Part shown: in pieces, positions 1,894 to 25,600 of the stretch | Layout of the letters: each line of letters begins with the position of its first letter | How positions within the stretch are numbered: the stretch's first letter is position 1 | Assembly (NCBI GenBank): GCA_002841685.1 | Contig: PHAM01000010.1 | Location: 1-38,166 of the forward strand | Reading direction: 5' to 3' | Origin: Elusimicrobia bacterium HGW-Elusimicrobia-2 | Lineage (GTDB): Bacteria > CG03 | Length of the DNA: 38,166 nucleotides | Notes under the pieces: model-generated | The model's input: the letters and a program-made list of their open reading frames with translations, nothing else | Database searches by the model: none | Told to the model about the DNA's origin: nothing | Position numbers and translations under genes: made by a program

Positions 1894-2355
1894 ATGCCTG
1901 TATTTGTCAGCGATGCTAAACTCGGAGCGGAAAAACAAAAAGTTGTGGAAACGGCCCTTAAAATCCTGGCGGAACTCATAAAAGCGGACGGCTGTTCCTT
2001 TATGATGAAGCACGATGACACAGATGAGATCGAAATAGTCTCATCGGGAGAAGAGAGCGCTGAGGTTGCCGGTAAGAAACTGGGAATCCGCGTCAAGGTC
2101 GGCGAAAGGATAGCGGGGAGATCCGCCGCCGAAAAGAAGCCCTTCCTGATCGTCGGGGATATTTCTCACAACAAAAATTTCACCCATTTGAAAAAATATG
2201 AGGAAATATCATCCGGTTTGAGCGTGCCGGCAGTCAAAAACGGTAAAGTCGTAGGAGTGATCAACGCAAAAAAATCCACGTCAAAAGATATCCTGACGCA
2301 GGATAATCTGGACACCGCCAAAATCATAGCCGATATCATCGCCGCGGAATTTTAA
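1894..2355 (+). CDS. GAF-domain protein heading the motor-like operon
   Basis: A 153-residue soluble protein that consists of essentially one GAF domain: an N-terminal helix with ETALKILAELIKADGCSFMMK, the central GERIAGRSAAEKKPFLIVGDI segment near residues 72-92, and the closing LSVPAVKNGKVVGVINA strand near 111-127. GAF domains sense small ligands or mediate dimerisation. No output domain is attached, so it would act on a partner. The start is set by AGGAGG at 1880-1885, 8 nt upstream. It lies 10 nt before the FliF-FliG fusion and heads the operon, which suggests a regulatory input to that system, but nothing in the sequence shows the ligand. Confidence 0.8.
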   Translation: MPVFVSDAKLGAEKQKVVETALKILAELIKADGCSFMMKHDDTDEIEIVSSGEESAEVAGKKLGIRVKVGERIAGRSAAEKKPFLIVGDISHNKNFTHLKKYEEISSGLSVPAVKNGKVVGVINAKKSTSKDILTQDNLDTAKIIADIIAAEF

Positions 2356-2365
2356 GCCAGCAATA

Positions 2366-3730
2366 ATGAGATTGCGCTTCTTACCGGCATTTCTGGCTTT
2401 TTTTCTTCCGGCGCATTTATTGGCGGCTCAACAGGGCGCGGATATACAGACAAAGATCGCCATAGAAAAAAATCTGGAAGAGCGTCTTCACAGGATATTA
2501 ATCGAAATAATCGGTACAGATAAACTGATCATTGTCATAGATGTTCAGCTTGTCGGCAGCGGCGATGGTAACGATGAAGAAGACGAGGTCGTGCTGCCGG
2601 GCGTGCCGCTCCAGGAAAAACTCGGCCTGGGCATCGCCGGCCTGCAGCTGGGCGATACGGCGAAAAAAATAAAAAAACTTTCAGCGCAGATCATAGTGGA
2701 CAACAATCTTCCGGAAAGCATGGTCAAGGTCATCAAAGAGGTGTCGTCCGGCGTGCTCGGCATGGATGCGGAGAGGGGCGATATCCTCTCTATAGAGAGG
2801 ATCAATTTCAGAAAAAACCCGTTCAGCTGGTCCGATATTATATATCCTCCGCATTTATGGGGTCTTTTGTTCACGGCGTTCCTGGGCGCGGGACTGGCCG
2901 CTTTTTTCATTTTTGTCACGAAGACTTTTCCGGGTTCTGCTGAGGCGGTATCGCAGGCTGTGAGGGATTCGGGCGAGAAAAATGCCGGGCCCGCCGGCGG
3001 TTTTTCTTCCGCAGTGACGGCTTCGGCGTCGCTTTCTCCTGATTCCCGCGGTCGCGGTATATCCTCGGAAGAAAAAGGGCATTTTTCTTTTCTGACACCG
3101 GATATCGCGGATAAACTTATATTTCTGCTCAAAAAGGAAAAACCGGAAAATATCGCTCTTGTTTTGAATTACGCTCCCGGCTTATCAGGCGCCATCCTTT
3201 CCGGTCTGGACAGGAAACTCGCCGGCGAGGCCCTTGCCCGCCTGACTGATACGCGGTCTCTTCCGGGTGAAGAAGTTTCCAGGTGGGAGAACGAACTGAG
3301 GCAGAAACTCGATTTTTTTGTCGGCGGCAAAGAAATTGTCTCAGATATATTGGAGAATCTTTCCGATGAGGAGATGGATGAATATATCGCGTTTATAGGG
3401 GAGAAAGACCGCGCTTTCTCCGAAGAGCTCAGGAAATCCGTTTTCAGGCCGTCGCATCTTGCGGAAATGCGCGCTGAAAACCTGCTACTCGTCTACCAGC
3501 ATTTTAATCCTGTTTCATTTGCCGATGTGCTGAGGATTCTTCCTGAAGATATCAGGAAGAAGGCGCTCGGTAAATTCCCTGAAGGCATATCATCGCGGCT
3601 GAACGAGGAAATAGAGCTCGGCGCCGGTTCGGGGAAGGAAAAACTGCTCGCGGAGAAGAAGGCTCTTTCGCGCCTGGTGTCGCGCCTCAGAAGAGACGGC
3701 CTGCTGAAAACGGATTCAACGGAGGCTTAA
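2366..3730 (+). CDS. FliF-FliG fusion: periplasmic FliF RBM3-like domain, one membrane helix, cytoplasmic FliG-like domains
   Basis: A 454-residue inner-membrane protein. Residues 1-21 are a signal peptide. Residues 30-148 match the C-terminal periplasmic part of the MS-ring protein FliF: LEERLHRILIEIIGTDKL, then KKLSAQIIVDNN, then the AERGDILSIERINF strand. Residues 164-186 are a transmembrane helix equal to FliF TM2. After a Gly/Ser/Ala linker, residues 245-345 match FliG middle-domain repeats (EKPENIALVLNY) and 345-447 match the FliG C-terminal torque domain (FRPSHLAEM, DIRKKALGKF, SSRLNEEIELG, and the final KKALSRLVSRLRRDG helix). FliF RBM1, RBM2 and TM1 are missing, and the FliG EHPQ motif that binds FliM reads EKPE (258-261). 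With MotA and MotB directly downstream, it should be the torque-receiving partner of a stator. No Shine-Dalgarno sequence is evident at the start. Confidence 0.85.
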   Translation: MRLRFLPAFLAFFLPAHLLAAQQGADIQTKIAIEKNLEERLHRILIEIIGTDKLIIVIDVQLVGSGDGNDEEDEVVLPGVPLQEKLGLGIAGLQLGDTAKKIKKLSAQIIVDNNLPESMVKVIKEVSSGVLGMDAERGDILSIERINFRKNPFSWSDIIYPPHLWGLLFTAFLGAGLAAFFIFVTKTFPGSAEAVSQAVRDSGEKNAGPAGGFSSAVTASASLSPDSRGRGISSEEKGHFSFLTPDIADKLIFLLKKEKPENIALVLNYAPGLSGAILSGLDRKLAGEALARLTDTRSLPGEEVSRWENELRQKLDFFVGGKEIVSDILENLSDEEMDEYIAFIGEKDRAFSEELRKSVFRPSHLAEMRAENLLLVYQHFNPVSFADVLRILPEDIRKKALGKFPEGISSRLNEEIELGAGSGKEKLLAEKKALSRLVSRLRRDGLLKTDSTEA

Positions 3731-3735
3731 ATTTT

Positions 3736-4500
3736 ATGGATCTAATGACGATTCTGGGCCTTGCTATCGGCGGCGGCGCGATATACATTGTCATGCTCCA
3801 CGGGGATGTTGTCTATCTGCTGTTCAATCTGGACGCCGCCATTCTTGTTTTCGGCGGGACACTGGGCTCCACCATGATAGCTTTCCCTTTTAAAACCATT
3901 GTTCAGCTTCCGCGTGCCGTTAAGCTTATTTTTTTTCCGCCGCCGAAAATTAACATAGGCGGACTTATAAAGGATATGGCTCTTCTTTCGGCCGAGGCGA
4001 AAAAATCGGGGATTATGACGCTCTCGGACGGGAAGCTGAGGACGAAAGATCATTTTCTTTCGGAAAACATAAAAAAAATTGCGAACGGTGTGGAAAAAGA
4101 CATTATTGTCGAGAACATGCGGCAGGAAATCTTTTCCGTGGCCCAGAGGCATGAAAGGGCCTCGGGCGTTCTTCAGGCGATGGCCACTTTTTCTCCGATT
4201 TTCGGGTTGCTGGGTACGCTGATCGGCGTGATCCAGGTGCTAAAAAACCTGCAGGATCCCCAGAGCATGGGCGCCTCAATGGCCATCGCTGTGACGACGA
4301 CTTTTTACGGTATTTTCGGCGCGAATTTTCTTTTTTTGCCGGCATCGCTGAAGCTGGGGGAATATTCGAGAGAGGAAATACTCGCTAAGGAACTTATAGC
4401 CGAAGGGCTGGAATCTGTTCTCAACGGCGAGGTGCCGTCCATAACCACGCGCCGTCTTGACGCCTTCCTGTCAAAGCAGATCCGCGCGAAACAGCAATGA
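3736..4500 (+). CDS. motA: MotA-family stator protein
   Basis: A 254-residue MotA/PomA homologue, normally the five-subunit ring of an ion-driven 5:2 motor. TM1 and TM2 are at residues 3-22 and 31-51 (FNLDAAILVFGGTLGSTMIAFP). A cytoplasmic loop of about 90 residues follows, then TM3 near 146-168 with the family hallmark FSPIFGLLGTLIGVIQVL (Pro154) and TM4 near 178-202 (MAIAVTTTFYGIFGANFLFLP, Pro202). The cytoplasmic loop is the part that touches FliG in flagella. Length is in the usual range. It begins 5 nt after the fusion gene; a GGAGG lies about 10 nt before the ATG. The match is to the MotA rather than the ExbB/TolQ branch. Confidence 0.93.
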   Translation: MDLMTILGLAIGGGAIYIVMLHGDVVYLLFNLDAAILVFGGTLGSTMIAFPFKTIVQLPRAVKLIFFPPPKINIGGLIKDMALLSAEAKKSGIMTLSDGKLRTKDHFLSENIKKIANGVEKDIIVENMRQEIFSVAQRHERASGVLQAMATFSPIFGLLGTLIGVIQVLKNLQDPQSMGASMAIAVTTTFYGIFGANFLFLPASLKLGEYSREEILAKELIAEGLESVLNGEVPSITTRRLDAFLSKQIRAKQQ

Positions 4501-4514
4501 TGGACATGGGGTCA

Positions 4515-4555
4515 ATGGGGACGGTTCCTATTGCTACAATAGTAACCGTCCCCAT
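4515..4555. repeat. Palindromic repeat between motA and motB, copy A
   Basis: Two 19-nt arms, ATGGGGACGGTTCCTATTG and its inverted copy with one mismatch, flank a CTA loop. The same sequence recurs at 9793-9836 and as a half copy at 10443-10461. It fills the gap between the motA stop and the motB start, where it would form a strong RNA hairpin inside the operon transcript. Confidence 0.85.
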
Positions 4556-4570
4556 CCTCATTGATAAGGC

Positions 4571-5239
4571 ATGATATTCCGTCCGATCAAACAAGCCGTG
4601 AAGGAACCTATCTGGCTGACTGTTTTCTGCGATATGACAACCAACCTGATGCTTTTTTTTCTGCTGCTGTACGGTTTCACAAGACTTTCCAAGAGCCGTC
4701 AGCAGGAAATGTATGCCGCGCTGAGCTCGGCGGGGAACAGGGAAAAAATCCTTCAGCGCAAGGCCGACGGCGTGCTGAAAAAATTCGCGGAAGACGAAAC
4801 AAGCTCTAATCTTAAACAAATGATGAGCAGGGGGGATCTGAACAAATACTCAAATCTTGAAACTTCCGAAAGCCAGATAAGGCTTGTTCTGAACACTCCC
4901 GTGCTTTTTGACTCGGGCCGCGCGGAATTGAAGCCCGAAACAAAAGCGTTGTTAAAGGGCATAGCAAGGACATTGTCAATGACATCTTACAAAATAGTGG
5001 TGGAGGGGCACACCGACAATGTGCCGATAAAAAGTCAGGAGTTCAGGTCAAACTGGGAACTTTCTGCGCGCAGAGCGGTGAATGTTATAAATTATTTTGT
5101 CAGCCGCGGCCTGCCGGCTGAGAGGTGCATAGCCGCGGGGTACGGCGAATATTTCCCGCGCTATTCCAATGATGATTTTGCGCAGAGGCAGAAAAACCGC
5201 AGGATAGAAATCGTGCTCCTCAAGGAGGATATAGAGTGA
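4571..5239 (+). CDS. motB: MotB-family stator protein with the ion-binding Asp
   Basis: A 222-residue protein of the usual MotB plan. One transmembrane helix (residues 14-36) carries W15-x5-D21 in WLTVFCDMTTNLMLFF, with Asp21 in the exact place of the proton-binding Asp of E. coli MotB. A linker of about 60 residues follows, then an OmpA-type peptidoglycan-binding domain (residues 100-220) with VLFDSG, VEGHTDNVPI, NWELSARRAVNV and KNRRIEIVL. It should pair with MotA to form the ion channel and anchor the stator to the cell wall. Only a weak AAGG precedes the ATG, and a palindromic repeat lies just upstream. It overlaps the second motB-like gene by 4 nt. Confidence 0.92.
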   Translation: MIFRPIKQAVKEPIWLTVFCDMTTNLMLFFLLLYGFTRLSKSRQQEMYAALSSAGNREKILQRKADGVLKKFAEDETSSNLKQMMSRGDLNKYSNLETSESQIRLVLNTPVLFDSGRAELKPETKALLKGIARTLSMTSYKIVVEGHTDNVPIKSQEFRSNWELSARRAVNVINYFVSRGLPAERCIAAGYGEYFPRYSNDDFAQRQKNRRIEIVLLKEDIE

Positions 5240-5913
5240 GCCGTTTCGTCACCGGCCGTCGGCATGGCGACAGAATGATCGGTGAAAAGAAAAAATTCGA
5301 TCCGTCATCGTGGAAAACGCCTTACGGCACGATGATGCTGCTGTGCATGATTTTTTTTATGATTCTTTATACCATATCGTTAAAGTCGGGCGTTGAATAC
5401 GAGGGGGTTATAGCGAAGCTGCAGTCCGGTGTTTCGCGTGAAAAGCACTCCGCCGGGGATGTTGAGACGGCCGAGAAAATGGAGGAAATATTCGGTTCCG
5501 AAAAAGGCGTCATTCAGATGGACGCGAGGAAAATAAAGATAATGCTGGACAGCCCCGTGCTTTTTGACTCGGGTTCCGCCGAACTTAAAGAAAGCAGTCG
5601 CGATGTCCTCTTTAAAGTTGCGCAGGTGCTCAGGGAAACGCGCAACAAGGTGAATGTCGCCGGCCACACGGACGACATTCCTTTCTGGGCTCTCCCCGGC
5701 GGTAATTTTGAGCTCTCAACTCTGCGTGCATTTAATGTGATCAGGTATTTTATAGATGTTGAGAAAATACCGCCGGCACGATTTTCCGCCTATGGTTTCG
5801 GCGAACACAGTCCTGTCGCGCCGAACACCGACAGCGCCGGCCGCAGCCGCAACAGGCGCATAGAGATCAGCATCCTGCGTGAAACGGCCCGAAGAGAAGG
5901 CGCGAAAACCTGA
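5236..5913 (+). CDS. Second MotB-like protein lacking the ion-binding Asp
   Basis: A 225-residue MotB paralogue starting with GTG, in a 4-nt overlap with motB and with AAGGAGG 7 nt upstream. The transmembrane helix WKTPYGTMMLLCMIFFMILY aligns without gaps to E. coli MotB [20 protein letters not shown], and the position of the essential Asp is Thr. The rest of the family plan is intact: VLFDSGSAELKESSRDVLF, VAGHTDDIPF, NFELSTLRAFNVIRYF and SRNRRIEISIL in the OmpA-type peptidoglycan-binding domain (about residues 92-218). The protein can probably bind peptidoglycan but should not conduct ions alone. A role as the second, non-conducting B subunit of a mixed stator, or as a passive anchor, is inference. 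Confidence 0.88.
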   Translation: MSRFVTGRRHGDRMIGEKKKFDPSSWKTPYGTMMLLCMIFFMILYTISLKSGVEYEGVIAKLQSGVSREKHSAGDVETAEKMEEIFGSEKGVIQMDARKIKIMLDSPVLFDSGSAELKESSRDVLFKVAQVLRETRNKVNVAGHTDDIPFWALPGGNFELSTLRAFNVIRYFIDVEKIPPARFSAYGFGEHSPVAPNTDSAGRSRNRRIEISILRETARREGAKT

Positions 5914-5914
5914 T

Positions 5915-6781
5915 ATGAGGATTTTCTTTATTTCCGCCGCCGTGTTTTTGGCCTCCGTTTCCTTATGCCCAGGGGCTGATGATATAGGCGCGCTGTATAA
6001 TTCCGCCGTGAAAAATTTCAGCGCGGGCAAATACAGCGACGCGATCAGGTGCTGGCAGAGGATACTTGAGATAGATCCCGAACAGGTGCCCCCGCATAAA
6101 ATGATAGAATTCACGAGAGGCAAGATAAAGCAGGAGCTCGCGCCGCGGGTGCAGGCCTTTGAAAAAAATATGCAGGCCGGAAAATGGTTCATCGCCCATG
6201 ACGCCGCGTGCAGGGTGCTGGATATCGACCCGGCATATCCGGGCCTCGCCGAAAAAAAAGACAAACTCGGTGAAATAGCCGGTATCGTCGAAGATTGTTC
6301 GGGCTCCGGCAAGGTGCCGGTCATGCTGAGAAAAAGCGTCAACGCTTATTTTGATAAAAATCCCGCGCTTATGTTTGACGCGGCCATATATGCCGAACAG
6401 TTAAATAAGGATATTGCCCTCGGCAAGAAAATTTCCGCACTGCTATTTTACATGGAAAAAAAATACCCCGAGGCAAGATCCCGCGTTAAGCTGATAGCGG
6501 GCATGGATCTGATGAAACAGATGCTCCAGAGCTCGCTTGATTCTATTTACAAAGCCGATTACACCGGCGCGATCATGTTTTGTGACAGGATTCTCGCGCT
6601 TGATGAAAACAGCACTCTCGCCCTTATGAGAAAAGGTTCGGCGTATTACGCGCTCAACAATTTTAATGAGGCGCGTAAAAACTGGCAGCTGGCGCTTAAA
6701 ACAGATCCTAAAAATAAAGATGTGAAAAAATTTCTGAATCTGCTGGATAGAAAAAAGAAAAAAAACGGCGGAAAAAAATAG
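5915..6781 (+). CDS. Secreted TPR-repeat protein
   Basis: A 288-residue protein with a signal peptide (MRIFFISAAVFLASVSLCPG, then ADD) followed by tetratricopeptide-like helices: NSAVKNFSAGKYSDAIRCW near the start, a divergent middle part, and two clear C-terminal repeats (DSIYKADYTGAIMFCDRIL and YYALNNFNEARKNWQLALK) before a Lys-rich tail. I chose ATG 5915, which starts 1 nt after the stop of the second motB-like gene and gives a normal signal peptide; an upstream GTG at 5879 in the same frame would add 12 charged residues. TPR proteins are scaffolds. Here a periplasmic scaffold between the stator domains and the outer membrane is plausible but not proven. Confidence 0.8.
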   Translation: MRIFFISAAVFLASVSLCPGADDIGALYNSAVKNFSAGKYSDAIRCWQRILEIDPEQVPPHKMIEFTRGKIKQELAPRVQAFEKNMQAGKWFIAHDAACRVLDIDPAYPGLAEKKDKLGEIAGIVEDCSGSGKVPVMLRKSVNAYFDKNPALMFDAAIYAEQLNKDIALGKKISALLFYMEKKYPEARSRVKLIAGMDLMKQMLQSSLDSIYKADYTGAIMFCDRILALDENSTLALMRKGSAYYALNNFNEARKNWQLALKTDPKNKDVKKFLNLLDRKKKKNGGKK

Positions 6782-6792
6782 AGGAGGTTTTA

Positions 6793-7107
6793 ATGAGCGA
6801 ATTCAAGATCATTACCTGCATAGTTGAGAGGGGGAAGGCCGATAAGATCGTAGAAAAAATATCCTCGTCAACGGGTTACGGCGTGACGAGTTATTACGCC
6901 CGCGGCACGGGCGTGCGGGAAAAGATTGGTTTCATCGGCCGTCTGATAGAGCCGGAGAAGGAAGTTTTTACGACGGTTGTGCCCGCTGAAAAAGCGGATG
7001 AAGTGTTCGATAAGATCGTGGAGCTGGCGCATCTGAAGGAACCCGGCAAGGGTTTCGCCTTCATCCAGGATGTTGATCGGGCGGTGGGGTTTTACCAAAG
7101 GGACTGA
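6793..7107 (+). CDS. PII-like signalling protein
   Basis: A 104-residue protein with the ferredoxin-like fold pattern of the GlnB/PII superfamily: an N-terminal strand FKIITCIVERGKADKIVEKI, a short T-loop region around YARGTGVREKIGFIG, and the second half with VFTTVVPAEKADEVFDKIVELA followed by PGKGFAFIQDV. The long T-loop and uridylylated Tyr motif of classical GlnB are not recognisable, so it belongs to a divergent PII-like group that may bind a nucleotide or another small effector. AGGAGG lies 5 nt before the start. It sits inside the motor-like operon, suggesting control of that system by a metabolite, which is inference. Confidence 0.75.
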   Translation: MSEFKIITCIVERGKADKIVEKISSSTGYGVTSYYARGTGVREKIGFIGRLIEPEKEVFTTVVPAEKADEVFDKIVELAHLKEPGKGFAFIQDVDRAVGFYQRD

Positions 7108-7110
7108 CTT

Positions 7111-7845
7111 GTGAAGACGCTTTTTTTTATAATCGTCGCCGGGGCCGCGCTGTATCTGTCTAAAAGTGTGAGCGTTAAACCCTATGTGCCGGAATCGGCG
7201 AAGAAGCTCGGCGCGTCACTGGGAGAATTCAAAGAAAAATATTCGGGGCTCTCTCCCGAACAGCAGAAGACCTTGAATGATCTTTCCTCCAGCCGTGACA
7301 GCGGGATTTCTTCGGAAGAACGCCAGCTCATGGCCGAGATCCATAAGACCATGCAGGCGGAGAGCAAAGCGCCGGTTATAGAAAAGTTCAATAAGATGTT
7401 TTCTCCCGAGGGCGAGGAAAGGGAAATAGTGCAAAAGAAGACGCTATCGGAGTACGCTTATGTGTTTCAGCTCCGGCTTCTGAAGATACATAGGGGGCTG
7501 CGACATTATTATTACTGGGCTTCGGCATTTATATTTCTTTTCTCCCTCGCGTTCGCGAAAAACCTGTATTATTACAGGGCCGTTAAATTTTTTTCCGCAG
7601 GGGGTTTTACGGTCTCGCGATACGTTATGTTCCTTTTGTCGGCGGCGGCGATCATTTTTTATTTGAGCCTGAAAAGGAATATATGGCAGGAGTGCGGCGG
7701 CGATATATTCCCTCCGGTGGCGGTTCTTTTGGCGGCATCATCGGCGGCGCTGAAATTATATGACGCTAATTTTCCGGTTTACAGCAGGCTCATGGGGAGT
7801 TTTCTTCTGCCCGGCCTGTCATTTCTGCTGATTGCCTCCGGATGA
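7111..7845 (+). CDS. Inner-membrane protein of unknown function
   Basis: A 244-residue protein that starts with GTG 3 nt after the PII-like gene. An N-terminal hydrophobic helix (residues 1-17) is followed by about 115 hydrophilic residues rich in Ser, Glu and Lys. Four hydrophobic segments then occupy the C-terminal half (roughly 134-151, 165-185, 195-212 and 222-243). I do not recognise a family. The tight spacing places it in the same operon as the stator genes and the outer-membrane barrel. Confidence 0.7.
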   Translation: MKTLFFIIVAGAALYLSKSVSVKPYVPESAKKLGASLGEFKEKYSGLSPEQQKTLNDLSSSRDSGISSEERQLMAEIHKTMQAESKAPVIEKFNKMFSPEGEEREIVQKKTLSEYAYVFQLRLLKIHRGLRHYYYWASAFIFLFSLAFAKNLYYYRAVKFFSAGGFTVSRYVMFLLSAAAIIFYLSLKRNIWQECGGDIFPPVAVLLAASSAALKLYDANFPVYSRLMGSFLLPGLSFLLIASG

Positions 7846-7871
7846 TGAATATAGTACTTTAGGATGGATTT

Positions 7872-9788
7872 ATGAATGTGAAAAAAATATTTCTCGTGAT
7901 GTCGCCGGCGATTTTGTTTTTGATTGCCGGAGCGGCCTCTTCTTTAGTGGCGCAAGCGCCGGCGGAGATACAGCTTGCCGTGGCTGCGCCCGATCCGGCC
8001 AAGGCGGGAGACGAGCTGACTTTCCAGATAATAATACTGAATAAGGAAACGGCCGCCTGGGCGAAAACTGATATCAACTGCGTTATAGAGCTTTTTGATT
8101 CGTCGGGAAAATATATAGGCAAAACACAGGGCTTTAAACTGCCTTCCGATGTGCCGCCGGGGGGCTCCTCTCTTATACTCGCGTCTCATCAGATACCTTT
8201 TTCCTATTCCGGTCGCTATCAGTTCAGGGTGATGCTCTATAAAAAAGGCCAGAATATACTCACGAGCGCTTTTTATGATTTCAGCGTCAAAGCGGCGGCC
8301 GTGGAGGAAAAAAAAGACAAGCCGTTATTCCTCAACGGGAATATGTCATTTCTCTGCAAGAACAGCCAGCGCGCGGATTATCAGGGCTCTGTTTCCGCCA
8401 ATATCCTCGGTAAATTATATGACAGTACGCTGGTTTTTAATTCAAACGCTTATTCCTCGGAAGATGACAGATTCGACATTGATTCCATTTATCTGTCTCT
8501 TTTTGCCAGGAAATATAAAGTGTCAGCCGGCGATGTGATGCCTGAATTTTCTCCGCTGTCGCTTTATTCTCTCGCCGGGCGCGGTCTTGTTCTGGATTAT
8601 ATGACCCGTTCCGCCGATTTTTCCGGCGTTTATATAAGAACGCAGGAGGCGGCGGAGGGAGACGCCACCTCCAACGGCGTTTATGCCAGATACACGGGCG
8701 GCCTCAACGCGTCTGTGAAACTACCGGCAGGTTTCGGTTTAAAATTATCGGGTGTTCAGACATACGATTCTGAAAGTTCCATCAGCGATCCCGGTCCCGC
8801 GAATTCCGCAATAGCGAACGAAGTTTTGAGTTCCGAGATGCGCTGGGCCTGCGGGTTTATGGATGTGAAAGGAGAGTTCGCCTCCAGCTCGCGCAGGGAA
8901 AAAGAGTATATCGCCGTCAGTGACTCATACGACAGCGGGGTTTCAACAACCGGCGCGGCCTACAGGTTTGAAACGCGGTTTTTTACAAGAAAGTTTAATC
9001 TGAAAGGGAAATACCAGAAAGCGGAAGCGGATTTTTTAAGCCTCTCAAGTCCAGGTCTTTATCCCGACAGAGAGAGCTCCGAGGTGTCCGGGGGGTATTC
9101 TCCTTTTCAATTCCTGAGGGTTTCCGGCGGTGTTCAATCATCTGAAGATAACCTGGAGAATGACGCGGACAGAGACACGACAAAGCAGACCGTGTCAAAT
9201 TACGGTTTCCAGCTCAATGTGAAAAATCTTCCGGGCATCAGTGTTTCATCCACGCTGAACAAAGTGGAGGGCAGTTCCGTCACCGTGCTGAGCAATGAGA
9301 CGAAAGGGCTGAATATGGGCCTGAGCTACCGGCTCGGTGGCCAGATGATCTCAGCGGGAATTTCCGAGTCGGCTTTCAGGAATCACGCCTCAACGGCCAC
9401 CGGCCATGATCTTGACACCGGTGTTTTCTCTTTCGCTTATTCCGGAGCCATTGGTTCTTTTTTGTCTTTTGACGCCGGCTACGCAAGTAATGAAACAAAG
9501 AATCTTTACGACCTGTCAATTGATGAGACGACCTCTCTTTCGCTTGGCGCCAATGTCAAGTTCACAAAAACGCTGAATCTGTTTTTATACGGTTCAAAAA
9601 CTTCAAGGGAGAAGCTCGCGGACAATGTGAAAACAGACACGCAGAATTACTCGGCGGAAATCACCTATAGCGCCCGCAAAAATCTTTCCGTCACAACCGG
9701 TGTCAGCGTTGAGAAAAACGACGAAACAACTGACGCCGAGGATTACAGTTCCACGGGTTATCTCTTCCGCCTTCACTACAGCTTCTAA
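7872..9788 (+). CDS. Outer-membrane beta-barrel protein with an N-terminal Ig-like domain
   Basis: A 638-residue protein with a signal peptide (residues 1-28, ending SSLVAQA). A domain of about 110 residues follows, with the alternating strands of an Ig/CARDB-like fold (QLAVAAPDPAKAGDELTFQIIILNKE to GRYQFRVMLYKKGQNILTSAFYDFSV). The remaining 470 residues alternate polar and hydrophobic positions in many amphipathic strands and end in YLFRLHYSF, a typical barrel C-terminus with terminal Phe recognised by the BAM complex. It is the last gene of the motor-like operon, 26 nt after the membrane protein. Function unknown; it could be the outer-membrane part of that system. Confidence 0.8.
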   Translation: MNVKKIFLVMSPAILFLIAGAASSLVAQAPAEIQLAVAAPDPAKAGDELTFQIIILNKETAAWAKTDINCVIELFDSSGKYIGKTQGFKLPSDVPPGGSSLILASHQIPFSYSGRYQFRVMLYKKGQNILTSAFYDFSVKAAAVEEKKDKPLFLNGNMSFLCKNSQRADYQGSVSANILGKLYDSTLVFNSNAYSSEDDRFDIDSIYLSLFARKYKVSAGDVMPEFSPLSLYSLAGRGLVLDYMTRSADFSGVYIRTQEAAEGDATSNGVYARYTGGLNASVKLPAGFGLKLSGVQTYDSESSISDPGPANSAIANEVLSSEMRWACGFMDVKGEFASSSRREKEYIAVSDSYDSGVSTTGAAYRFETRFFTRKFNLKGKYQKAEADFLSLSSPGLYPDRESSEVSGGYSPFQFLRVSGGVQSSEDNLENDADRDTTKQTVSNYGFQLNVKNLPGISVSSTLNKVEGSSVTVLSNETKGLNMGLSYRLGGQMISAGISESAFRNHASTATGHDLDTGVFSFAYSGAIGSFLSFDAGYASNETKNLYDLSIDETTSLSLGANVKFTKTLNLFLYGSKTSREKLADNVKTDTQNYSAEITYSARKNLSVTTGVSVEKNDETTDAEDYSSTGYLFRLHYSF

Positions 9789-13623: not shown

Positions 13624-14462
13624 AAAATTTAGAGAAGAAAATAGAATTGCTGAAAGATTATTTTTCAAAAGAGCAGTCGGTGATTATGGCCTATGTTTTT
13701 GGTTCTTATGCCAAAGAGAGAGTTATGTCTGAATCGGATTTTGATGTTGCTGTTTATTTCAAGCCGCAAGACAGGGAAATAGAATACGAGAAAGATAGGG
13801 AATATCCGGAAGAGGACAGAATCTGGAGCGATGTTGAAAGAATTGTCGAGGTAAACACGGACTTTGTTGTTATGAACAGATGCCCCGCCACCCTCGCTCT
13901 GGAAATTCTTGAGATAGGGAAAAAGATTATTGTCAAAGATGAAGAGCTCCGTCTTGAATTCTATCTCATCACAAGTTCCGTCGCGATGGACTTTATGGAA
14001 TTTGCGAGGGATTTCTATGCGATCAGGCAGCGTTCCGCATCATTAAGCGAACGGGATAAACACAATTTAATGAGGAGAAAAGTTTTTCTGGAAAATGAAA
14101 TAGGCGAAATTGATTATTTTAAAGATTTGGATTTTAAAACTTACAGTACGGATAGGAACAAAAGGAGAATTGTAGAGAGGTGGATTGAAGTTATAGTTGC
14201 CGCATCAATTGATATTGCTAAAATAATGCTCGCCTCGGAAAAAAAAGAAATTCCCAAAACTTATAATGATACGCTGAAAATGTTCGGGTGGATGGTTGGA
14301 TTTGAAGGGGACTTAAATGAGAAATTTTCTAAATTTGCGGATTTAAGAAATATCTTAGCGCATGAATATCTGGATATTTTGTTTGTGAGAATAAAAAAAT
14401 TCATTGACGAAGCGAAGCCGATTTACAGGGAATTGATTGATTTTGTGGATAAAAAAATATGA
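13620..14462 (+). CDS. Fused MntA-like nucleotidyltransferase and HepT-like HEPN protein, copy 1
   Basis: A 280-residue protein combining both halves of a type VII toxin-antitoxin system. The N-terminal MNT nucleotidyltransferase has G28-S29 followed by ten residues and D40-x-D42 (GSYAKERVMSESDFD), the GSX10DXD motif of the antitoxin MntA. The C-terminal HEPN domain has R243-N-I-L-A-H248-E-Y250, the RX4HXY motif of the RNase toxin HepT. In known systems MntA adds AMP to the HepT Tyr and blocks the RNase; here both are one chain, so modification could be intramolecular. The start ATG overlaps the stop of the surface-protein gene by 3 nt. A paralogue of the same length lies at 15043. Other possibility: a self-regulating defence RNase rather than a plasmid-type addiction module. 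Confidence 0.8.
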   Translation: MKNLEKKIELLKDYFSKEQSVIMAYVFGSYAKERVMSESDFDVAVYFKPQDREIEYEKDREYPEEDRIWSDVERIVEVNTDFVVMNRCPATLALEILEIGKKIIVKDEELRLEFYLITSSVAMDFMEFARDFYAIRQRSASLSERDKHNLMRRKVFLENEIGEIDYFKDLDFKTYSTDRNKRRIVERWIEVIVAASIDIAKIMLASEKKEIPKTYNDTLKMFGWMVGFEGDLNEKFSKFADLRNILAHEYLDILFVRIKKFIDEAKPIYRELIDFVDKKI

Positions 14463-14475
14463 AAAGGATAATAGG

Positions 14476-14742
14476 ATGATATCAAAAACTGATAAAAATG
14501 TAATTATAGAATGCGCAAAAAAGTATAGTGTAGGAGAAATCATTCTATTCGGTTCTTCCGTTGATAGTGAAACTGCAAATGATATTGATATCGGCATAAA
14601 AGGAATTCAACCGGAGTTGTTCTTTCAGTTTTATGGTGAATTATCGAGAAATTTATCTAAAGAAGTTGATGTAATAGACCTGGATGAAAAAAATTCTTTC
14701 AATAAGCTGGTAGAAAGAGATGGAGTAAAATTATATGGATAG
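14476..14742 (+). CDS. Stand-alone MNT nucleotidyltransferase (antitoxin-like)
   Basis: An 88-residue minimal nucleotidyltransferase with the core FGSSVDSETANDIDIGI: G26-S27 and, after eight residues instead of ten, D36-x-D38. The C-terminal strand VDVIDLDE carries the third acidic position. I chose ATG 14476, which follows an AAAGGA; an upstream in-frame TTG would run into the preceding coding region. Its stop overlaps the start of a broken ORF where the HEPN partner of such genes normally sits. Confidence 0.75.
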   Translation: MISKTDKNVIIECAKKYSVGEIILFGSSVDSETANDIDIGIKGIQPELFFQFYGELSRNLSKEVDVIDLDEKNSFNKLVERDGVKLYG

Positions 14743-14929
14743 TTTGATAGAAAAAATCAACGCTGAAATGGAAAACATATTTGTCGTGTATTCGGCATTT
14801 GAAAAAGAAATAGCCCGGATTATTCACAATGTATGTCATTCCGAAGGAGTTTTTACGACTGAGAAATCTAAGATTCCTCACTTCGTTCGGAATGACAGAC
14901 CGTTGTTTTTGTCCTCGGAGTATGAATAA
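14735..14929 (+). pseudogene. Remnant of a HEPN-type partner gene, interrupted by a palindromic repeat
   Basis: The frame starts with ATG inside the end of the MNT gene, the usual arrangement for a HEPN partner. The first 32 residues (MDSLIEKINAEMENIFVVYS...) look like the first helix of such a protein. From 14834 the sequence is a 64-bp inverted-repeat element, translated as CHSEGVFTTEKSKIPHFVRNDR, and the frame ends soon after. No HEPN active-site motif remains. The assignment to HEPN rests on position and on the first helix only. Confidence 0.5.
14834..14897. repeat. 64-bp MITE-like inverted-repeat element
   Basis: TGTCATTCCGAA at the left end and TTCGGAATGACA at the right end are perfect 12-bp terminal inverted repeats. 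The interior holds AATCTAAGATT. It resembles the widely dispersed TGTCATTC palindromes found in many bacterial genomes; a related half element lies at 16664-16691. No target-site duplication is obvious. Confidence 0.8.
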
Positions 14930-16232: not shown

Positions 16233-16621
16233 CGGCGCAGAACGAAATAAAAGGATTAATTGCAAAGGCACAGAGGAGACTGAATTCTGCCGGAGATGAA
16301 TTTCAGAAAGAGAATTATGATTTTGCGGTTTCCCACGCATACTATTCAATGTTCTACTGCGCGGAAGCGCTGCTTCTTACTAAAGAGTTGAGATTTTCAA
16401 AACATTCCGCCGTTCATTCCGCTTTTGGAGAACATTTTGCTAAAAACGGTGAAATCGATCCGAAATTACACAGGAAGTTGCTGGATGCGTTTGAAAAAAG
16501 AAGTAATGGTGACTATGAATACATGATTGAAATAACAAAAGAAGAAGCGGAGAAAATTCTAAGAGACGCAGAGTTTTTTGTAGGCGAAATAAAGAAGAAA
16601 TTAAATGAAAAAAATTTGTAA
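16229..16621 (+). CDS. HEPN-domain protein, partner of the upstream MNT
   Basis: A 130-residue all-alpha protein of the HEPN family: RLNSAGDEFQKENYDFAVSHAYYSMFYCAEALL (residues 17-49) followed by the conserved RSNGDYEY near residues 91-98 and a long C-terminal helix. The sequence is of the common MNT-partner type. A strict RX4-6H motif is not visible, so RNase activity is less certain than for the two fused proteins. It overlaps the MNT gene by 4 nt, and its last 17 nt overlap the start of the giant surface-protein gene. Confidence 0.8.
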   Translation: MTAQNEIKGLIAKAQRRLNSAGDEFQKENYDFAVSHAYYSMFYCAEALLLTKELRFSKHSAVHSAFGEHFAKNGEIDPKLHRKLLDAFEKRSNGDYEYMIEITKEEAEKILRDAEFFVGEIKKKLNEKNL

Positions 16622-19600
16622 ATCTTTGCCTGGTGTAGCAAGCGTAATAGCGGCAATCTCACTTGTCATTCTGAGCGGAGCGAAGAATCTCGCCTTCGCC
16701 GCGACGAGCGATTCAATAACTTATTACGTAACGGTGAGTTCACCTCCGGCGGCAGTGACGGATTTGGCGGGGGCGACGGGAACGAACGAAGGCGAGATTG
16801 ATTTAACGTGGTCTGCCCCCGGTGACGACGGGCTGACGGGGACAATAAGTTCTGGTGAGTTTCGAATAAAATTTTCTTCAAAAACGGATGCGTCTGATAA
16901 AGGCGGCTGGGATTACACGAGTAATTATGTAAGCAGTTCATGCGCAAACATTATTCCGTCTTCGTCATACGGCTACACAATTACCGGCCTTGTCGCGGGG
17001 GCTACTTACTATTTTAGGATTTGGACAGCGGATGAAGTACCGAACTGGTCAACTCTTTCAAACGGAGCGACCGCGCAGGCGCAGGTTGCTCAGGGCGGGA
17101 TTTGGAAGAGTGTTCAGGGCGGGAACTGGGGTGCGGGCGCAACTTGGGATAAAGGAAACGTTCCTAATTCACTAAGTGTTGTTGAGATTTCCCACACCGT
17201 AACATTTGATATGTTTGATGCGGAATGTTCCAGCGTTACTGTTTTTAATTTTGGGACTTTGCAGTTTGACGGGGCGGTTTCCACAAGAACCCTGACGGTA
17301 GCAGGAAACCTTGAAATAATGAACGGCGGAAATTTTCTGATGCCGCCGAATACCGGTTACATTTCAACGCTGAAGATTAAATGCGACACTGACGGAGAGC
17401 ATGGGATTATCGTAAATAACGGCGGGATATTTGATGTTCGGGGAAATACCACAACAACGCCGTCCACGAGAAACTGCTTGATTGCATCAGACAATCCATC
17501 CGCAAAAACATACATCCAAAACCTTTCACAGACCGAAGCTAATTTCAATATGTATTATGTGGAAGTAAGCAGCGTGGGAGTGAATGCTGATGGAAAATGG
17601 GGAATAACTTTTTATGGTTCACCGATAAGAGGAAAAATAAATTATTGCAGCATTCATAATGGGTATTATGGTATTTACATTTGGGGTAGTTCCAACAATA
17701 CAATAAGCAATAACAATTGTTATTCAAATTCTTTTAGTGGCATTTACCTTAACGGCAGTTCCAACAACATACTCAACAATAACAGTTGCTACTCAAATAC
17801 TCAAAGTGGCATTTACCTTGGCAACAGTTCCAACAACAACACACTCAGCAATAACAGTTGTTACTCAAATACTCAACCTGGCATTTTGCTTAACGCCAGT
17901 TCCAATAACAACACGGTGAGCAATAATAATTGTTATTCTAATGCTGTGGACGGTATTTATCTTGACACAGTTGAGGACAATACACTGAATAATAACAATT
18001 GTTACTCAAATTCTGGAAATGGCATTGATGTATTCACTTGTGTTGACAATATCCTGGGCAATAATAATTGTTATTCTAATTTGAACGGTATTCGTTTTAA
18101 AGACAGTGAGAACAATACACTGAATAATAACAGTTGCTACTCAAATTCCCAATATGGCATTTTAGCATCAGCCGATGATATTCTCAATAATTTAATTGTA
18201 AATTGCAATTTAGGGAAAGATGGAATTAACACGAGTGGAGATATTGGTTATTATAATACTGGTGGTGGTGCTCCAAAACTAATCTTAAAAAATTGTAATT
18301 TATATTCCACAACGAAAGTTAATCCGACAAATATGTACGACGGGTCTCTTGTTTCGTATAATCAGGACGGGACACAGGGTACAACAAAAATATGGGGTGA
18401 TTATAAAATTGAAAACGGCGAAACGGGGAAATTTAATTATGCTGACTTGCTTTATGCCTCAACAGCTACATTGCCGAATTCTACTTTGAAAGGTTCAGGT
18501 TCAATAACATATCCGACGACAAATGATAGTCAAACGCTGACTGAATTTTGGGAAGTAAAATATAACGGTTCAAGTTTTGATGTCCGCAGAGGAACGTGGG
18601 CGGTTCTGGATTATGATGGTGATGCGACAGTCGGTTCGCCATATTCAGGTTCACCGAGAGGCGTAGGTTTTACAGTGAGCGGCACATTTCAACTGAATGA
18701 TGCATTTTATTTTGTGACAATTTCATCGTCGGGTGATCAAAATACTCAGAAGATAATTGAGTTCAGTAGTTCAACAATCGGCACAAAATTGAGTGTTGAT
18801 TCCGGCGGAACGATTCAGATGATAGGAACACTGGGTTATCCCACTATATCCACGGCTTCGGCGAGCGGCGTGTATTACGGTTTTGCGTCTTCCGGAACAA
18901 TGGAAGCGAGTAACTATAAGTTTTTCAATCTCAATTCGGAAGGCCTGAAGTTTCAGTCCGCCGGTGCTGATGTTGTGGATTTGAGCAGCGGAACTTTTGA
19001 TAACATTCAGGACAGCGCCGGTGATTCAAGTTATATCTGCGTGTTATATCTGACATCCGCCGCTACATGGTACAACTGCACATTCAACGACACTCCGGGG
19101 ACGGCGGATTATAATGTTAAGGCGGACGGATCGGGAGTAAACTGGACATTCAGAGATTATGACGGCGTAAAAAGCGGCGTAACTTACAGTTCCGCGACAA
19201 ACGGAGCTGTTATATACTGGGTTGTTCCGGACGCGACCCCGCCGACGGTCGGGATAATAACCCCGACAGATGATTCCTATGTGAACAGTTTGTCCCAGAT
19301 AGAGGGAACTTCAGATGATGATGTTAGCGTGAGCACGGTGATGGTAAGTATGCAGAGATTGAGCGACAAATGGTACTGGTCGCCGGGGCCGCAATGGGCG
19401 GTTGGAGAGACGTGGAATGGGGTAAACAGTTTTGTCGCTTCAACGTGGACGCTGACTTCACTGCCGGGCTGGGTGGACGGTTCAAGTTATACGGTCGTTG
19501 CAAAAGCGCAGGATACAAGCGGCAACTGGTCGCAGGTTTATTCAACGGTGACGTTTACTTATGATAATTCCGCGCCGGTATCATCGGCGACATATCCTGT

Positions 19601-22600
19601 AAACGGCGGGCATTATGTTGATGTGGACTCAATCACGGGGACGGCCACGGACGATGTTTCGGGAGTGAATGAGGTCAACATCCAATTAAAGAGGCAGGCG
19701 GATAATAAATACTGGGACGCCGTGGGTTCATTGTGGACATTCAGCGCGATATGGAGCACCGCCACAGAAACGACGAACTGGAGTTTTAACGCAATCCCGG
19801 TCATCTGGTCAACCGGCAGCTATAGTGTTCAATCAAGGGCGAAGGATGCTGCGGGAAATTGGGAGACCCCGACAAGTTCAACAACATTTAGTATTGGATA
19901 TTCAACTCCGGCCGCGCCGACGGGATTCGCGGGGACAGCACAGTCGGCAGTGTCAATAAAATGGTCATGGAATGATGTAAATGAAGAAGACGGATATTAT
20001 GTCAGGGATTCATCGGGGGCTCTGAAGCAAACTCTTTCCGCGAATGTGACTTCGTGGTTGGAAACGACGGGGTTAACGGTCAATACCTCACATCAAAGAT
20101 ACGTGGAAGCTTATAATGCGAGCGGTTCAAGTAAATGCGCGGCAATAATCAGATACACATTGGCAACTACTCATTCGGGATTATATTTTAGCGGCGGCGG
20201 GGGTTCAAGTGTGACTTTTGCATGGAACGTAAATACTAATCCGTCATGGACGAGATGGGGAATATATAAATCAACGGACGGTTTTATAACGAGCACGGCA
20301 ACTCTAAAGAATTTTGCGGCGAATTATACAAGCAGTACTTATACTGATACCGGGTTGACTGACTTAACAACCTACTGGTATAAGGTACAGGCGTTTAATG
20401 GTGACGGGATAGGTTCCACTTTCAATAATATCATATCAACGAAAACTCCGGACGAAACTCCTCCGACAGTCGGAATAACAAAACCGGCTTCAACTTATGT
20501 CAATAGTTTAGGGCAGATTGAGGGAACCGCGGCGGATAACGGGGGAATAAACTATGTTAATGTTGAAATCAGAAGAAACTCGGATGGTTATTATTTTGAT
20601 TCAGCGACATGGGGAACGCAGACATGGCTGGGGGTGAGTGTTTTTACGAGCTCATGGACATATTCGGATCCTGACCTCTCCTGGATTAACAGGTCAAGTT
20701 ACACCATAACAGCGCGGGCCTGTGACACAGCTCTTATATATTCCGCGACGACAACAGTGACGTTTACTTATGATATAGATTTGCCGACTTCGGCGGTGAC
20801 ACATCCTGCCGAGAGCGGCAAGTACGATTCTATCACGCAGATAACGGGAACTTCCGCGGAGGCGACATCCGCGATAAATGCGGTAGATATAAGTGTAAGG
20901 AGAACATTAGGCAACGAATATTGGGACGGGTCATCATGGGTCGACGGCCAGCAATGGCTTACGGCACTGGCTGCTGACGGCACTTACGACACTCTGACGG
21001 AGAACTGGAAATTTGATATAGAGTATTCTACAGACGTGTTTTCATCGACGGGGCAATATGTGGTTTCATCGCGGGCGCAGGATTCCGCTCTGAACTATGA
21101 GCCCTTAATATCGTCAGTGACATTTGAAATAGTGTTTTCAACACCTCCGTCAGTCGGTGGAATTCAGGGAGATGCCGTTTCAACAGACAGCATTAACTGG
21201 TCGTGGAGCGATATAGTGGAGGAAGACAATTACAGGATTAAGAGCGCCACAGGGGGGATTTTGAAAGACGCTCTTCTCGCGGACACGACATTCTGGCTGG
21301 AAACCGGACTGACCGCAAATACGACGTACCAAAGATATATTGAGGCGTATAATACAATCGGTTTCAGCGCGGCCGCGACGTCTATCATTTATACATTGGC
21401 GAATGCGCCTTCGGGTTCTGATTTTAGCGCAGTATATAAAACAAGCGCAACGGTGACGTGGTCGTCAAACGGCAACCCTGCGTTGACAGGATATATTGTG
21501 GAGTGCGATTCAACGACGCCGTATGATTTTGTGTCTGTTGATTTAACAAGCGGCTGGATAGATGTAACGACGCACACATTCACAGGGCTGACAAACGATA
21601 CGAGCTATTATTTTAAAGTGAAGGCGAGAAACGGCGGTTTAACGGAAACAGGATTTGATTCAATAATATCTACAGTTACGGTTTATGATGATAAGGTTGT
21701 TCCCACTTTAGGAATAACCAAACCGCTTGACGGTTCGTATACAAATAGTGTGCCTCAAATACAGGGCACATGTGCCGACGATGTGGCGGTTTCGACGGCT
21801 GCGATAAGAATTTTTAATCAGATAAACGCGAATTACTGGAATAACAATACGACGATTTGGGATGCTACGCTAACGCCTGAAACTGCCTGGTTCGCGCCAA
21901 CGCTTTCGGCCGGCGGGACATTCTGGTGGTTTAATTCTCCGGGCTGGGCGGACACAAAGGTTTATGAAATCAGCGCAAAGGCGAAGGATACGGCCGGCAA
22001 CTGGTCAGCGGTTTTTTCAACGGCTGTTTTTACCTACGATGTCACGAAGCCGGCTTCTGCCGTGAGCGTTCCGGAAAACGGAATGAAACTCGCCACATTG
22101 ACAAGTCTCGGCGGCACGGCAGCGGATGCAACATCCGGAATTTCGCAGGTTAAAATTCAAATCACGGATCTGACGCAGGGAGCGACATACTGGAACGGCA
22201 GCGGTTGGGTGGAAACTTCCGCGTGGCTCCCCGTAAGCGGGGTCGACCCCTGGTCGTACAGCTTTGTTGACGGCGACTGGACTGAAGGGCATGTTTATAA
22301 AATACAGTCTCAGGCGACGGACACCGCGGCCAATGTGGAGTCCGCCGTAAACGCGAGTACATTCACCTTCAGCAATGCCGGAATCAAACTGCAGGTTATT
22401 CTGCCAGGCGAGACGGCGACTTCCGGTATGTCTCCGGGGAAGAGCGGCACGCCGACCGCGCAGATGGCCGGAGTGGCTTTCAGCGTAACTGTCAACGCCG
22501 TTGACGATTTGTGGAATCTTTCGGTGAATGCGATTGCGACAGCGCAGGTAACGACAAGCGACCCGAACGATACGGAGCCGTCATCGTCGGCGCTGGTAAG

Positions 22601-25600
22601 CGGAACGAAAGTTTTTTCTGTAACGATGGTGACCGCGGGAACAGCGACGATAACGGCAAGTGACACTGATGGAACGCCTCTTTTGCCGGAGACAAGTTCT
22701 GAAGTTAATGTAAATGCTAATGCTCCGTCGAAACTTCAGGTTATTGTTCCCGGAGAGGCCGCCGCCGCAGGCACGGGCGGTGGAAAAATGGGTACGCCCG
22801 ATGTTCAATATGCGGGAGCTGTTTTCACGGTGACGATCCACGCCTGCGATGCATATTGGAATGTTGTTTCAACGACTGCGACGGTAAATGTAACGACAAG
22901 CGATAATGCTGATACCGATCCCGGTAATATAGTTCTTCCGGCGGGCACGAATAATGTTAATGTAACGCTCGTGACACCGAGTACGAGTACGTTTATAACA
23001 GCCACGGCTGCCAGTTTTGCGGACGGTGTGTCGGTTTATATTGTGGTAAGTTCTACGGATGTGGTGCCGCCGACGGTGGGAATAACTGCACCAGCAGTCC
23101 TTTACACCAATAGCGTAATAAAAATAGCGGGTACGGCGAACGATAATGTGAAAGTTAGTTCTGTAACATTGTGGGTAGAAAGATTGAGCGATAATTTTGT
23201 CTGGACCGGCGCAGGCTGGAGCGGAGCAGGCCTATGGTTACCCGCGGACAATGTTTATGTCTCATCTTGGTCATACACAACCGCTGTTTCGTGGGATGAC
23301 GGTATCTCTTATGATATTATCGCGAAAGCAAAAGACAGCAACGATAACTGGTCAACGGTTTATGACACGGTGACGTTTACTTATGATATTTCTCTGCCGA
23401 CTTCGACGGTAACATATCCTGTGGAGAGCGGTCAGTATACGGATATTACGAGCATTACGGGAACTTCTACGGACACCGTTTCGGGAGTGTCGGTGACAAA
23501 AATAAAAATATTCGCATTGTCCGGGCCGTACATAGGCGCGTGGTGGCAGGATGGTTCAGGATGGCAGGGAGCTGAATTCTGGAATGACGCATCCGGTACA
23601 GCTTCGTGGAGTTTTGACACCTCAATGATAGGATGGTCGACAGGGACTTATAATGTTCAGCCGAAAGTTCAGGATGCGGCAGGCAACTGGGAAGTGCCGG
23701 TAAGTTCGGTGACATTTGAAATCATTCCTTCCACGCCTCCGGCCCCGGCGGGATTTCATGGCGAAGGGCCGGAGCTTACGTCTATGTGGTGGCGCTGGAC
23801 GGATAATTCAGACAATGAAGACGGTTTCAGAGTTAAGAGCGATACGGGGGGAATACTTGCGGATTTACTCCCGGGCGCAACCGAGTGGCATGAAGACGGC
23901 TTGAGTCCCAACACATCATATTTCAGATACGTTGAAGCGTATAACGTCAGCGGTTCAAGCGCGAGTGAAATTGCGATGAAATCCACTTTGCCGTATCAGC
24001 CGGCTTCATTACAGATTACGCAGGTATCATCAACAACGGTTACTATAACATGGTCCGCAAGCGGCAACCCCTCGTTTACAAAGTATATTGTTGAATGCGA
24101 CGGGACAAATCCCTATGATTTTGAACCGCCCGATAACGGTTACGGTAATTCCGTATTGACAACGACACACACTTTCACAAATTTAACGGCCGCGACGACA
24201 TATTATTTTCAAATAGGGGCTATGAGCTTGGACGGAGATGTAATAGTTTATTCCGCAACTGTTTCGACAATGACAGCGGATGCGGAAAGTTTTGTCGCTT
24301 CATGGAGTTCCCCTGAAATGGAATTAACCATGGATACAGCCTGGGGTGACTATGATAATGATGGAGACTTGGATCAACTCGTAGGAAATGCTGTGGGGGT
24401 AAACCGTATCTACAGAAATGAAGGAGACGGGACATTCACAATGGCCTGGAGTTCTCCTGAAAGTGAAGATACCCTGAGTGTGGCCTGGGGGGATTATGAC
24501 AATGACGGTGACTTAGACCAATTAGCGGGGAATGACGGAAGTAACAGGGTATATAGAAATAACGGCGATGGAACATTTACAATGATGTGGGTTTCGGTGG
24601 AAACGGAAAAAACATATTCAGTAGAATGGGGTGATTACGACAACGACGGCTATCTTGACCATGTAGCGGGGAATTATGGAGTTAACAGGGTTTACAGAAA
24701 TAACGGTGATGGGACATTTACGTTAGCATGGAGTTCAGCAGAATCAGATGACCACCGGAGTGTTAAATGGGGCGACTACGACAATGACGGCGACCTTGAC
24801 CAGTTGGTCGGAATTAACGGAGCGCAGCGCACCAGAGTATACAGAAATAATGGCGACGGGACATTTACATTGACATGGGAATCGACAGTAACTGACGCTA
24901 CCGTGAGTGTTGCGTGGGGCGATTATGACAACGATGGTGATTTAGATCAACTGGCAGGAAATGAGAATGAGGCAAATAAGGTATATAGAAACGATGGAGG
25001 CGGAACGTTTACACTGGCGTGGACTTCAGCAGAAACAGAAAATACAGGAAGTGTTTCATGGGGTGATTACGACAATGACGGTGATTTAGACCAGTTAGTT
25101 GGTAATGTTGGTCAAACAAACCGGATATACAGGAACGATGGAGATGACACATTTATTGCTGTCTGGAACTCGGCAGAGACAGAAGATACTCGTAGTGTTA
25201 CATGGGGTGATTATGACAATGATGGTGATTTAGACCAGTTAGCAGGGAATTATGGTCAAACAAACCGCATTTACAAATCTCTTGAAGCGGATTCAGGGAA
25301 TGCTAATACGGCGCCGGCAGCTCCGTCGGCTGGATTTTCGGCAAATTATAATTCAGCAACGGAAGAAATTGAGTTCCGGTGGGACAAATCAACAGATGCG
25401 GAAACTCCGCAGAACGGGCTTTATTATGCGATTAACATTGATACGGGCGGGATAAATTACACACTTTGGGACGAAGTGATAATGGGTGAAAAGCATACAA
25501 CAGCGAACTTTGGCAAATATATGCACAGTTATATATCCTCAACAACGGTACAACCAGGTTTTAATCTTAAAATAACAACAGCGTTGCCAACAGGGGTTAC

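Follow-up and report, generated by a model that had tools for sequence, protein, structure and literature searches.

The nine-gene operon at positions 1894-9788 of contig PHAM01000010.1, from the genome of Elusimicrobia bacterium HGW-Elusimicrobia-2, very probably encodes the core of a non-flagellar, ion-driven motor, composed of a FliF-FliG fusion (hereafter FFG), MotA and MotB, in a cell without a flagellum. "The window" designates the whole 38,166-nt stretch of this contig that was analysed. A first-pass annotation of the window had proposed that a membrane-anchored FliG is the moving part of a dedicated ion-driven machine, and our analysis supports this. To our knowledge, FliG is known only as the rotor of the flagellum. 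In Bacteroidota, GldLM has two jobs, the movement of gliding adhesins and the carrier and export work of the type IX secretion system (T9SS); judging from gene context, the FFG motor probably has an output of this kind, moving or energising outer-membrane carrier/adhesin complexes.

Searches of the genome that contains the window (hereafter own genome; 1.78 Mb, 96% complete) were made family by family and stretch by stretch. Loci, genomes, own-genome contigs and families or lineages are designated by L, G, C and f, respectively, followed by a number.

Organization of the operon

The operon comprises nine open reading frames (ORFs), all on the + strand, with intergenic gaps of -35 to +70 nt. 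Its genes, the regions of FFG and a surface-protein gene of the same window are as follows.

1894..2355, + strand: GAF-domain protein, 153 aa, first gene of the operon and probable regulator (Pfam GAF_2, 2.5e-13)
2366..3730, + strand: FFG, fusion of FliF RBM3/transmembrane region with FliG middle and C-terminal domains, 454 aa (Pfam, Foldseek, tree)
2438..2803, + strand: periplasmic ring-building domain of FFG, RBM3-like, aa 25-146 (AlphaFold2 secondary structure a-b-b-a-b; FliF RBM3 matches)
2849..2926, + strand: single transmembrane helix of FFG, aa 162-187 (AlphaFold2 helix; hydrophobic sequence)
3110..3700, + strand: cytoplasmic FliG middle and C-terminal domains of FFG, aa 249-445 (Pfam, Foldseek, residues)
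3736..4500, + strand: MotA, flagellar-type stator subunit, 254 aa (Pfam MotA_ExbB, 4e-23)
4571..5239, + strand: MotB1, 222 aa, with ion-binding Asp at residue 21 (4631-4633) and OmpA peptidoglycan-binding domain (Pfam OmpA and MotB_plug; alignment)
5236..5913, + strand: MotB2, 225 aa, plug and OmpA domains, with Thr in place of the ion-binding Asp (residue 32, 5329-5331)
5879..6781, + strand: secreted TPR protein, 300 aa (Pfam TPR)
6793..7107, + strand: PII-like signalling protein, 104 aa (Pfam P-II, 4.4e-9)
7111..7845, + strand: membrane protein, 244 aa (no family above cut-off; 96% ortholog in L036)
7872..9788, + strand: secreted protein, 638 aa, putative outer-membrane barrel, the barrel not being confirmed (97% ortholog in L036)
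16605..28862, + strand: candidate secreted cargo, FN3-rich surface protein of 4085 aa with a T9SS-like C-terminal domain (CHU_C 8e-4; PorZ and PorU C-terminal matches 4e-8 and 6e-7; C-terminal domain pattern)

The nine-gene, one-strand operon described in the first-pass annotation stands in position, strand and gaps, but the outer-membrane barrel assigned to its last gene was not confirmed. Profile searches returned no family match for this 638-aa protein and its AlphaFold2 model, with a predicted local distance difference test (pLDDT) score of 29, is unusable, so that no barrel is claimed. Hidden Markov model searches matched all four of FliF_C, FliG, MotA and MotB in the operon, as anticipated. 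All nine genes are kept in a sister species (L036), and the operon is also found at L034 and L042; the GAF gene adjoins FFG at all three loci. The GAF-domain and PII-like proteins probably regulate the motor. The TPR protein is related to the TPR part of PorV/PorQ-TPR proteins encoded by sister modules (BLAST 1.8e-35 with an ORF of L005).

Fold and conserved residues of the FliF-FliG fusion

In Pfam, FFG matched FliG_M (4.8e-8), FliG_C (1.4e-4) and the end of YscJ_FliF_C (2.7e-4). Its AlphaFold2 model, obtained from a 22-sequence alignment (pLDDT 74), consists of an RBM domain with the order helix-strand-strand-helix-strand, one transmembrane helix and an all-helical FliG armadillo part; a signal-peptide-like N-terminus was read from the sequence. 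Comparison of the model with the PDB using Foldseek gave FliG or C-ring structures as the top 13 matches (E 2.4e-7 to 3.2e-5), followed by FliF MS-ring/RBM3 rings (probability 1.00, E 7e-4 to 1e-2), and FliG-C of T. maritima superposes on the model at 1.9 Å. These matches to both folds bear out the first-pass reading of FFG as a junction of the FliF RBM3/transmembrane part with the FliG middle and C-terminal domains.

Residues of 26 FFGs were compared with those of 27 flagellar FliGs using the numbering of E. coli FliG. In flagellar FliG, the EHPQ motif is the contact for FliM and the acidic pair D288/D289 faces the stator. EHPQ or a near form is present in 27/27 flagellar FliGs and in 0 FFGs. 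The acidic pair is EE in most FFGs, including that of the window, and at least one acid is found in 26/26; the position of K264 is usually occupied by K or R, and that of R281 by G, A or E in 26/26. At the level of sequence, these residues read as those of a rotor that would still meet a working stator and no longer a C-ring. FliF-FliG fusions are known to form rings unaided (PMC6079021).

A flagellar-type stator with a second MotB

The MotA of the window scores 142-161 bits with flagellar MotA/PomA models versus 18-20 bits with ExbB/TolQ models, and the two ion-channel prolines (equivalents of P173 and P222) are kept in the MotA of all modules compared. The ion-binding Asp is present in 28/28 MotB1 or sole MotB proteins. 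MotA and MotB1 are, as far as alignments and profiles tell, a flagellar-type stator pair with an ion-binding Asp and a peptidoglycan anchor. In 14/14 paralogues of MotB2, which accompanies MotB1 in its modules, the position of this Asp is taken by T, N or S. MotB2 probably either forms a MotB1:MotB2 heterodimer with one ion site or serves as a non-conducting anchor, and the stator axle may be asymmetric.

The own genome also carries two ordinary-looking operons of the ExbB/TolQ type (L104 on C8 and L105 on C78), one of which includes two ExbD/TolR-like genes. FFG modules are therefore additional to the usual envelope motors.

Distribution and phylogeny of FFG modules

The window module is one of three paralogous motors in its genome, with FFGs encoded in the window, on C79 (~690 aa, with C-terminal TPR) and on C85. 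Among the 16 genomes of the phylum, FliG_C was found in 12, and a profile of FFG added G008, in which the gene is cut by a contig end, bringing FFG to 13/16. Of the three genomes without FFG, G015 carries half a module (coiled coil-MotA-MotB), and the remaining two have a completeness of 63% and 66%. In public records, named relatives bear the labels of Elusimicrobia, Caldiserica and Sumerlaeota metagenome-assembled genomes (MAGs).

In a tree of FliG middle and C-terminal regions, 26 FFGs form one group (support 88/86) apart from 25 flagellar FliGs, and this group splits into two old branches, a long and a short type. Long-type modules contain a PorV/PorQ-TPR gene, an FFG with a TPR tail, a coiled coil of ~1300 aa, MotA and MotB; short-type modules contain FFG, MotA, MotB1, often MotB2, a histidine kinase (HK) and a response regulator (REC). 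Both FFG types also occur in an unrelated lineage, f190 (both in G353, the short type in G223), and the short-type module also occurs in f73 (G082). A third form, which nests with the short type, is represented by the window module and was encountered only in family f1 (G000, G002, G003, G005 and G006). The ~1300-aa coiled coil, which is cytoplasmic, has a Pro-rich N-terminus and lies between FFG and MotA (2225-6073 at L004, 10499-14407 at L046, and others), is a possible scaffold.

Two proteins on long branches were set apart from the FFG family. The first (L028 9823-11778, in G058) is a FliF_C-FliG-like protein encoded beside a TPR protein and a weak outer-membrane protein barrel, upstream of dnaG and rpoD, with no MotA beside it. 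The second (L142 7507-9024, in G132) is a divergent FliG that lacks EHPQ and whose N-terminus is long, from a genome that has FliM/N and a SprA homologue.

FlhA (PF00771) was found in 0/16 phylum genomes, own genome included, and was matched in 4 flagellated controls. FliM/FliN (PF01052) were found in 0/20 genomes, namely the 16 of the phylum and 4 from outside it with FFG or a like protein, flagellated controls being positive. No flagellin, rod or hook gene was recognised in the window or the loci examined, no dedicated search for these having been made. Since the MAGs are fragmented, some gene absences may be gaps. Rather than a flagellar gene set elsewhere in the own genome with the fusion as its only FliF or FliG, the searches thus returned no FlhA, no FliM/N and two further FFGs, and the window operon is not a fragment of a flagellum.

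Partial flagellar gene sets have been found in non-motile genomes (PMC12199754), and FFG modules might likewise have persisted by chance as relics after the loss of a flagellum, or be in decay. This is highly improbable given the presence of three paralogous modules in one 1.8-Mb genome, phylum-wide conservation, the fused FliF-FliG architecture and the loss of precisely the FliM-binding motif. The ratio of nonsynonymous to synonymous substitutions (dN/dS) between congeners, 0.03-0.14 for all motor genes tested and 0.03-0.11 for the window operon, indicates purifying selection; together with the copy number and the single separate clade, it led us to rule this explanation out.

The regulators encoded in some modules (GAF and PII-like proteins in the window, HK and REC in module 2, a short-type module) suggest a different alternative, in which FFG and MotAB would serve in signalling or gating, as a module for ion flux or mechanosensing that these proteins read out, with no generation of force. 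The Asp-less MotB2 could then be a sensor subunit. We consider this improbable because the force-generating parts (the Asp of MotB1, the prolines of MotA and the acidic pair of FliG) are kept under selection and because such regulators are missing beside long-type modules.

Carriers, surface proteins and SprA

The gene directly upstream of FFG scores above the PorV_fam cut-off of NCBIfam (90 bits) in five genomes, which represent the phylum and two further lineages. In long-type modules it encodes a PorV/PorQ-family outer-membrane protein with a TPR tail (139 bits at L035, 115 at L046, 133 at L149, and 156 at L137 of another lineage); in a third lineage, the short-type carrier of L140 has no TPR tail (109 bits). 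PorV and PorP/SprF models also matched other short-type carriers, with scores under the cut-offs. At L026, L044, L149, L137, L138 and L140, the gene immediately upstream of the carrier encodes a protein with a T9SS-like C-terminal domain (CTD), in most cases a very large one; these six loci come from G008, G009, G011, G353 (two loci) and G082. The order giant CTD protein, PorV/PorQ-family carrier, FFG, (coiled coil), MotA, MotB recurs in three lineages. The CTD pattern was relaxed after a stricter one had matched 0 ORFs, with shuffles as control; it matched 13/516 ORFs of the loci versus 0.05 in the shuffles, and matches to CHU_C, PorZ and PorU are weak. The 4085-aa protein of the window is a candidate secreted cargo, possibly of the module encoded there.

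SprA/Sov homologues were detected in 15/16 phylum genomes, and also in G353, G223 and G082. The own copy (C93:2995-8034) matched TIGR04189 at 8.5e-44 with 149 bits, under the equivalog cut-off of 200 (5e-59 for L072), and had a profile match to the solved SprA (PDB 6h3i) at 1.5e-17. In the own genome and in G003, sprA is located no more than about 1.5 kb from the HK-REC-MotB2 end of module 2. The existence of a multi-copy, phylum-wide family that extends to other lineages, the Asp-less MotB2, and the location of sister modules beside carriers and CTD proteins in SprA genomes had not been visible to the first-pass annotation. Its list of possible outputs, gliding, surface-protein transport or envelope work, was right, and this context favours the movement or export of surface proteins.

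Taken as a whole, our favoured explanation, which we judge likely though well short of certain, is that a non-flagellar FliF-FliG rotor serves surface-protein movement or export, the work of GldLM in Bacteroidota. FFG would oligomerise through RBM3 into a membrane ring, whose cytoplasmic FliG face would be turned by MotA pentamers. By way of a periplasmic RBM3 collar, along with TPR adaptors, this motion would cross the periplasm and reach PorV/PorQ/PorP-type carriers in the outer membrane, to which giant T9SS-like (CTD) surface proteins, exported by SprA, would be attached. Such a motor would move surface adhesins (gliding) and/or eject loaded carriers from the translocon. In Bacteroidota, each type B substrate remains on its own dedicated carrier, and an energy chain driven by the proton motive force moves it and also drives export (PMC12635249). 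The cassette of cargo, carrier, rotor and stator shows this logic with another motor.

Several observations weigh against this explanation. The basic residue at R281 is gone in 26/26 FFGs, so that the stator contact cannot equal the flagellar one. In G058, where neither SprA nor FliM/N was found, an FFG-like protein is encoded with no MotA in its vicinity, and the module-2 genes of G002 are not adjacent to sprA. SprA is present in 158/386 surveyed genomes, which belong to many families and mostly lack FFG; hence FFG is not generally required for SprA export, and after this survey we dropped SprA co-occurrence alone as proof of a link. Profile searches found no PorV-type gene in the window's own module, whose putative barrel matches no family, and its output may therefore differ from that of sister modules.

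The wide occurrence of SprA without FFG, and a window module that lacks PorV and ends in membrane and secreted proteins matching no family, also speak for a motor that is real and unrelated to T9SS. Its task could lie in the envelope (upkeep of peptidoglycan or outer membrane, or a role like that of Tol-Pal) or in moving an intracellular cytoskeletal or coiled-coil element, PorV and CTD genes being neighbours for other reasons; the ~1300-aa coiled coil between FFG and MotA recalls cytoplasmic gliding scaffolds. On the other hand, the order CTD protein, carrier, FFG in three lineages is more than neighbourhood chance easily gives. We regard a T9SS-unrelated motor as unlikely, while giving it more weight than any other alternative to surface-protein movement or export.

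GldM (PF12081) was found in 0/16 phylum genomes, a result of low power given that the model is also absent in nearly all of 76 other genomes, mostly chosen as SprA-positive; GldL was not searched. We consequently downgraded the argument that absence of GldM means a replaced motor, and put forward the replacement of GldLM by FFG as a hypothesis. SprA-type export may be far wider than Bacteroidota, with other motors.

More tentatively, and with a little less than even chances, FFG modules could be a second, non-flagellar class of FliF/FliG rotary machine, an ancient one that either duplicated before at least two lineages arose or passed between them as a pair. Its MotAB-driven ring, in many copies with an asymmetric MotB1:MotB2 axle and one ion site, would move carriers and giant adhesins, serving SprA-type export and gliding as GldLM does in Bacteroidota.

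Comparison with known systems

With the flagellar motor, in which a MotA5MotB2 stator turns the FliG rotor held by the FliF MS-ring, the FFG modules share the folds of FliF RBM3 and FliG middle and C-terminal domains, a flagellar-type MotA, a MotB with Asp and OmpA anchor, and a mostly kept 288/289 acidic pair. They differ from it in that FliF and FliG are one protein with a single transmembrane helix and a signal-peptide-like N-terminus, no FliM/N or FlhA was found, EHPQ and R281 are lost, a second MotB lacks the Asp, and FFGs form a separate clade. The T9SS/gliding machinery of Bacteroidota (GldLM/PorLM, GldK/N, SprA, PorV, PorP/SprF) has in common with them the SprA/Sov homologue in the genome and, next to sister motor modules, T9SS-like CTD proteins and carriers of the PorV/PorQ or PorP/SprF type; however, the motor here is MotAB-FliG instead of GldLM, the GldM model gave no match (with limited power), and most carriers bear TPR.

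The AglRQS-Glt system of Myxococcus also combines a MotA-like subunit, two MotB/TolR-like subunits and TPR proteins in non-flagellar force generation. We know of no FliG or FliF in Agl-Glt. The Asp is present in AglQ as well as in AglS (PMC9389320), and never in MotB2. Laboratory FliF-FliG fusions of Salmonella and Vibrio (PMC11481574, PMC6079021) similarly indicate that a single polypeptide can assemble rings, but they are engineered with full-length FliF in flagellated cells, whereas FFG is a natural, truncated fusion without C-ring partners. The first-pass annotation knew of no described system with this gene set; in the open-licence literature searched, we likewise found none, nor any description of a non-flagellar FliG machine or of a FliG-T9SS link.

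The FFG family provides a testable, conserved FliF-FliG/MotAB module in flagellum-less lineages, from which the FliM interface has been removed and in which the stator interface is largely kept. FFG and MotAB constitute a minimal natural rotor-stator pair for structural work, the family is an outgroup for the origin of the flagellar motor, and the Asp-less MotB2 is a natural experiment on one-site stators. The FFG motor is also a candidate power source for SprA-type secretion or gliding outside Bacteroidota.

Other features of the window

Upstream of the operon, a tmRNA gene (1268-1616; Rfam 121.9 bits) follows smpB (839-1291). The final 21 bases of the tmRNA lie inside a 62-nt stretch (1596-1657) that has an exact copy 177 nt downstream (1773-1834), directly before the motor operon; this repeat is perhaps an integration scar. 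Farther downstream, between two surface-protein genes, five successive small ORFs (13620-16621) resemble, judging from their sequences, nucleotidyltransferase/HEPN (MNT-HEPN) pairs.

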